Part shown: one piece after another, positions 1,932-63,751 of the stretch
Position numbering within the stretch: the first letter of the stretch is position 1
How the letters are laid out: each line of letters begins with the position of its first letter
Assembly: GCA_028554795.2 (NCBI GenBank)
Contig: CM068838.1
Coordinates: 85,936,944-86,000,943, forward strand
DNA: 64,000 bases
Direction: 5' to 3'
DNA from: Sinohyriopsis cumingii
Taxonomy: Eukaryota > Mollusca > Bivalvia > Unionida > Unionidae
Notes under the pieces: generated by a model
Told to the model about the DNA's origin: nothing
Seen by the model: only the letters and a program-made list of their open reading frames with translations
Databases searched by the model: none
Made by a program: the position numbers and the translations under genes

Positions 1932-1974
1932 TTCATCCTGAAGAAACCATTAAGTGATATTGTTCTTGAAGCAC
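1932..1974 (-). CDS. Exon D7 (43-nt microexon), start of a seventh cassette
   Basis: It encodes GASRTISLNGFFRM between acceptor tttcctag and donor gaa|GTAAGT. The length of 43 nt, the phases and the L-N-G-x-x-R core match D5 and D6, although the FY pair is replaced by IS. No C exon is seen in the remaining 1.9 kb to its left, so C7 must lie outside the window. Confidence 0.78.

Positions 1975-63751: not shown

Follow-up and report, generated by a model that had tools for sequence, protein, structure and literature searches.

Repeated exon cassettes in Sinohyriopsis cumingii point to a giant, probably secreted protein built from a cysteine-rich module without a name in the libraries searched

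The window, i.e. the whole 64,000-nucleotide stretch of Sinohyriopsis cumingii DNA under study (C15:85936944-86000943, in a 2.9-Gb genome assembled as 1,138 contigs), carries 24 predicted exons on the minus strand (Table 1) which, when joined, form an open frame of 3,607 nt coding for 1,201 residues with zero stops. These are of four types, A to D, and the phases repeat through the window (D 1>2, C 2>1, B 1>1 and A 1>1), such that each D-C-B-A cassette is bounded as phase-1/phase-1; the C, B and A exons of the seventh cassette lie 0.9 to 11.4 kb past the window edge. Much of this had been proposed in a first-pass annotation made from the letters alone: the exact outer limits (exons D1 and D7), the order and phases of six cassettes plus the start of a seventh, and a length of 190-206 residues per cassette were all recovered in the open 24-exon join, where the cassettes measure 197, 206, 190, 201, 197 and 197 residues. 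All 24 exons were found, and three details needed correction: A3 and D4 are one exon, exon B5 has to end at a GC donor (19739), and the ten cysteines per cassette apply to five of the six, the sixth having 8.

Table 1. Predicted exons of the window and the tandem repeat that overlaps one of them (window numbering)
Feature	Position	Strand	Remarks
Exon D1	63709..63751	-	43 nt, phase 1>2; splice context and peptide pattern
Exon C1	61910..62076	-	phase 2>1
Exon B1	57242..57412	-	phase 1>1
Exon A1	55645..55854	-	phase 1>1; 3' end copied in adjoining minisatellite
48-bp tandem repeat, 12.2 copies	55091..55674	-	tail of exon A1 and intron start
Exon D2	54744..54786	-	splice context and peptide pattern
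Exon C2	54065..54231	-	
Exon B2	51638..51823	-	
Exon A2	47472..47693	-	two neighbouring paralogues 95-98% identical, introns less so
Exon D3	42332..42374	-	splice context and peptide pattern
Exon C3	40401..40564	-	
Exon B3	39768..39917	-	
Exon A3+D4, fused	36420..36675	-	phase 1>2; no A/D intron
Exon C4	33487..33653	-	
Exon B4	32944..33120	-	
Exon A4	29312..29527	-	
Exon D5	24834..24876	-	splice context and peptide pattern
Exon C5	20597..20763	-	
Exon B5	19739..19903	-	GC donor at 19739, GCAAGT context
Exon A5	14976..15191	-	
Exon D6	10941..10983	-	splice context and peptide pattern
Exon C6	9033..9199	-	2 of usual 3 cysteines lost together
Exon B6	7186..7356	-	
Exon A6	2180..2389	-	
Exon D7	1932..1974	-	opens seventh cassette; splice context and peptide pattern

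In an alignment of the six cassettes 14 columns are invariant, and identity to the first cassette is 27-30%. When the 773 minus-strand open frames of the window were compared using blastp, the six A exons matched one another (best E 9e-16), and so did the six exons of each of the two further long types (best E ~4e-9 and 5e-8). Exon-profile matches listed over 264 kb, with both strands searched, are on the minus strand, as are 107 of the 107 matches (some of them exon-tail copies) obtained at E≤0.01 with refined profiles on both strands of 334 kb; looser limits gave weak plus-strand matches, the best (0.0038) being antisense to a C exon. The start of exon C6 was set by hand, the automatic refinement having preferred an acceptor at 9211.

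Other repeats are present within and near the exons. The 48-bp minisatellite at exon A1 stays open in frame (a 278-aa open frame), and a donor-like GGTAAGT is found in four of its copies, GGTAAAT in five and GGCAAGT in two. At C15:86922733 and C15:87567953, what are probably its counterparts are open over 178 and 98 aa, and the array is therefore likely to vary in length from one gene copy to another. Exon-tail sequence is similarly repeated, in steps of 66 bp, near coordinate 190200-191000. Moreover, a ~230-bp interspersed repeat, perhaps a short mobile element, was observed at 8343-8573, 27587-27817, 43793-44023, 59247-59477 and 59634-59864 (62-81% identity to the reference copy). The longest open frame of the window, at 20865-22202 on the plus strand (445 aa), consists mostly of a 24-bp minisatellite with ~54 copies and is for that reason unlikely to be a gene.

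The array does not stop at the window. We analysed 273.5 kb around it, with coordinates below 1 or above 64,000 extending the window numbering, and the C-B-A exon order persists on both sides over ~308 kb, interrupted only where the array begins and ends and B goes unrecognised. The extended model contains 34 exons of type A, 31 of type B and 33 of type C (116 exons counted) and runs from a B exon at 256448 to an A exon at -21260, comprising 6,007 codons (two of them partial), that is ~6,005 aa, free of stops. The long protein of many ~197-residue modules that had been expected from the window is thus larger than guessed; 29 complete units, a set that leaves out the last, longer piece of the model, have 187-206 residues (mean ~198). 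Model building required AG, GT or GC and open exons, hence splice-site counts, such as GC at 4 of the 117 donors chosen for the complete gene, are not independent evidence; as we read the predicted exons, it is the lasting exon order, the phases and the conserved residues that carry evidential weight. A matches covering <36 model positions were dropped (the exon-tail copies at ~190200-191000 and one at -9193), as were the C matches at 245317, 166989, -7650 and -21951. Several D exons of outer units, e.g. those at 242931 and 252244, score low. The A/D intron is missing in 14 of 34 cases, counting as fused the pair 150336/150293, which is 6 nt apart. With the outermost conserved exons 334 kb apart, at C15:85895706 and 86229283, the window would be an internal slice of a giant gene of ~334 kb, and we consider it rather probable from these predictions that its product is secreted, disulfide-bonded and longer than 6,000 residues.

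Ten cysteine columns are conserved in the 29 units, with ten cysteines in 21 units, 8 in five, and 9, 11 and 12 in one unit each. Cysteines C1, C2, C4 and C6 are never lost. C3 and C5 are lost jointly in two units (C5 singly in one), C7 and C10 jointly in one, and C8 and C9 in two, and in two units C8 is off-column, with a cysteine standing 2 or 7 columns further on. Joint loss to this extent was matched by one of 100,000 random placements, even with the best pairing taken in each trial. Because the cysteines are mostly lost in pairs, the alignment suggests disulfides C3-C5, C7-C10 and C8-C9, although the single loss of C5 and the two off-column cases of C8 count against this. The sole C7/C10 loss affects an A exon and the C exon that follows it; since this putative bond spans the cassette border, and many A exons run on into D without an intron, the unit that folds probably consists of B, which is helical, together with a beta domain encoded by A, D and C. 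The border of the D-C-B-A cassette probably cuts a domain, as seen from the fused A/D exons and the A/C cysteine pair. AlphaFold2 models of single exons, computed with six alignment rows, are consistent with this division, giving, at modest confidence, five strands for A (mean pLDDT 66) and helices for B (71).

No known domain was recognised in the unit. The joined 1,201 aa match no Pfam family at E≤10, a search that took in EGF, TSP1, VWD/VWC, CUB, LDLR-A, Ig, FN3 and sushi; the six window units searched against Pfam gave one match only, DUF7741 (E 0.55, 11 bits where the cut-off is 27), and against NCBIfam one match in one unit (E 0.12, not significant). Searched singly against Pfam, 28 of the 29 complete units (the rows of alignment A4) gave seven families with one member each and a best E of 0.033, a result that comes without cut-offs, and profiles of 6 and 28 rows found no PDB sequence at E≤10. 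VWD, C8 and TIL in particular have no Pfam match in the repeat unit, either in the 1,201-aa join or in the 28 units. These results agree with the earlier suggestion that the unit may be an undescribed domain, and they argue against the alternative that it is a known domain too diverged for profiles, the family being a far branch of something already named. Profile libraries miss distant relatives, and the fold comparison, made with models of single exons, is weak (no solved fold at E≤0.001, best PDB match E 0.13); on balance we find this alternative somewhat unlikely, while giving it real weight.

Beyond the domain libraries, a single-unit search of prokaryotic contigs gave 16 pattern matches, none of them a relative by tblastn, and a unit search of phage sequences gave zero, the reach of both being close relatives at best. 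A search of the genome with the haemocyanin model PF14830 gave no match, and neither did the controls. Word searches of the titles and abstract openings of open-access literature did not recognise such a unit, which may still be published; a limpet adhesion paper names VWD, EGF, Kazal and SRCR domains (PMC7333891). Relatives of the unit may sit in databases as uncharacterised proteins.

At its downstream end the array is followed by a weak C-like match (E 1.8e-4), standing outside the exon model, that carries the basic stretch SGKRRRRQAETE, ahead of which no good donor was found. Past this stretch there are helical and beta-rich open frames, the last found at -40956 to -41237. A furin-like protease may cut at SGKRRRRQAETE and would then separate the array from the conserved C-terminal region. 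Two C-terminal exons gave nothing over the cut-off in Pfam (best E 0.17) and zero matches to PDB sequences at E≤10. This region may resemble uncharacterised invertebrate proteins, a likeness that was given no weight as evidence but leads one to expect that databases contain relatives.

Upstream of the window, the first A exon is at 286667-286876. Ahead of it, at 287311-287478, lies the first of two exons near the N-terminus with a SAP domain (PF02037), the second being near 277700 (about 277661-277858); they score 25.9 and 31.3 bits against a gathering score of 23.9. An acidic exon at ~292200 is common to three copies of the gene on contig C15. The SAP domains stand next to the opening units of an array that is apparently extracellular. 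A SAP relationship of the repeated B exons is not supported: a B profile compared with the two SAP exons gave 1.3% probability, and the B exons of the array have no Pfam SAP match.

SAP domains are best known from nuclear DNA-binding proteins and in that respect argue against secretion. An intracellular or nuclear giant protein would account for both domains scoring above the cut-off and for the first SAP exon being found in 8 of 9 gene copies, but it fits poorly with some ten conserved cysteines per unit that are mostly lost in pairs and with a slight excess of sequons (63 against 50, sd 6, in shuffles; 53 of 2,000 shuffles reach 63), and we regard it as improbable. As to the initial proposal of a secreted or surface protein, the paired cysteine losses support it only indirectly, and no signal peptide was found in the region covered, which stops short of the 5' exon. 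A giant secreted structural protein is in our judgement the most likely product of the predicted gene.

The gene has several relatives in the genome. For the first A exon there are nine strong matches (E≤1.9e-12; the next 1.9e-7), three each on contigs C15, C13 and C2, and the same distribution of nine, three per contig, was obtained for the beta-rich C-terminal exon (9 matches among 9 scored candidates) and the last C-terminal exon (9 among 13). The first SAP exon was detected in eight of nine copies, two of them at E ~0.002 (weakest E 0.0025). A-exon searches of the genome gave, among the matches listed, at least 174 distinct places, all in ten clusters on these three contigs and each cluster lying on one strand; one C13 cluster has three A-exon matches among those listed. 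Since only 18 of the 34 A exons belonging to the gene in the window were recovered among the matches listed, the predicted genome total is likely above 300. Of the C2 clusters, that at 83.38-83.70 Mb has the N-terminal marker without the C-terminal one and that at 64.85-64.97 Mb the C-terminal without the N-terminal marker; the two are read as one gene in two pieces, by which the ten clusters would represent about nine giant gene copies.

On contig C2, the N- and C-terminal pieces of this split copy seem to be 18 Mb apart, and two copies 21 Mb apart and in opposite orientation (L006 and L007) have 96% and 92% identity over pieces of 1.0 and 0.7 kb. The clusters involved are those at 63.57-64.12, 64.85-64.97, 83.38-83.70 and 84.79-85.30 Mb, and either a rearrangement or an assembly fault would explain the arrangement.

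Exon A2 and its two C15 paralogues have pairwise identities of 98.2%, 94.6% and 94.6%, and the flanks that align around it reach 93-96% identity in the closest pair and 52-62% in the other two; compared with the third C15 copy, the exon is 94.6% identical and the aligned flanks 54-61%. The dS/dN values of the three pairs are 0.043/0.012, 0.160/0.030 and 0.112/0.042, ratios that are rough since they come from one 222-bp exon. For A2 and the third C15 copy dN/dS is thus 0.030/0.160, and for the pair L002/L003 it is ~0.4 (0.042/0.112), which we count against our main explanation. Judged by the exon and flank identities, exon A2 is apparently kept while the introns drift.

This conservation of A2 above its introns bears on whether the array might be decayed or untranscribed, a relic of an older gene. 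A TAA within the matched stretch of one SAP exon copy, possibly past the exon end, and the one C2 copy in two pieces would fit such a relic. They are outweighed by the ~6,005 model codons free of stops, though the exons were chosen open, and by zero stops inside the A-exon matches listed (150 and 82), and we consider a relic very improbable.

The module itself is without a name in the libraries searched, and the symmetric phase-1 build of a giant protein is well known. It has phase-1 introns on both sides and is repeated in frame, as is the case for phase-1/phase-1 shuffled extracellular modules. Fibrillins, hemicentin and SCO-spondin are likewise long arrays of a single module with symmetric phase-1 introns and unique ends; in contrast to these, the module described here has no Pfam match, so that it cannot be recognised as EGF, TB, Ig, TSP or VWD, and is encoded by three or four exons per repeat. 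FCGBP, zonadhesin and the gel-forming mucins, with their VWD-C8-TIL arrays, are also cysteine-rich chains of several thousand residues with CC pairs, but our array shows no VWD, C8 or TIL match and its composition (S+T 15%, P 4%) is not mucin-like.

Taken together, we tentatively propose, giving it a little less than an even chance, a new two-part extracellular domain, consisting of a helical part and a ten-cysteine beta part, that fills nine giant genes with ~300 or more units and forms the main component of a lineage-specific secreted material. In the main explanation, the array would have grown by duplication of the phase-1/phase-1 exon group. The chain would consist of beta units held by disulfides and joined by short helical parts, and the protein would be exported and serve, as an extended N-glycosylated chain, in an extracellular material (a matrix, mucus, glue or coat).

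An unnamed unit that fills about nine giant genes shows the extent of unclassified animal protein. The array also documents tandem growth, with 14 of 34 A/D introns absent in one gene, and the paired loss of cysteines means that the sequence by itself indicates likely disulfides. Finally, should the protein turn out to form a mucus, glue or coat, this would represent a new type of repeat material.
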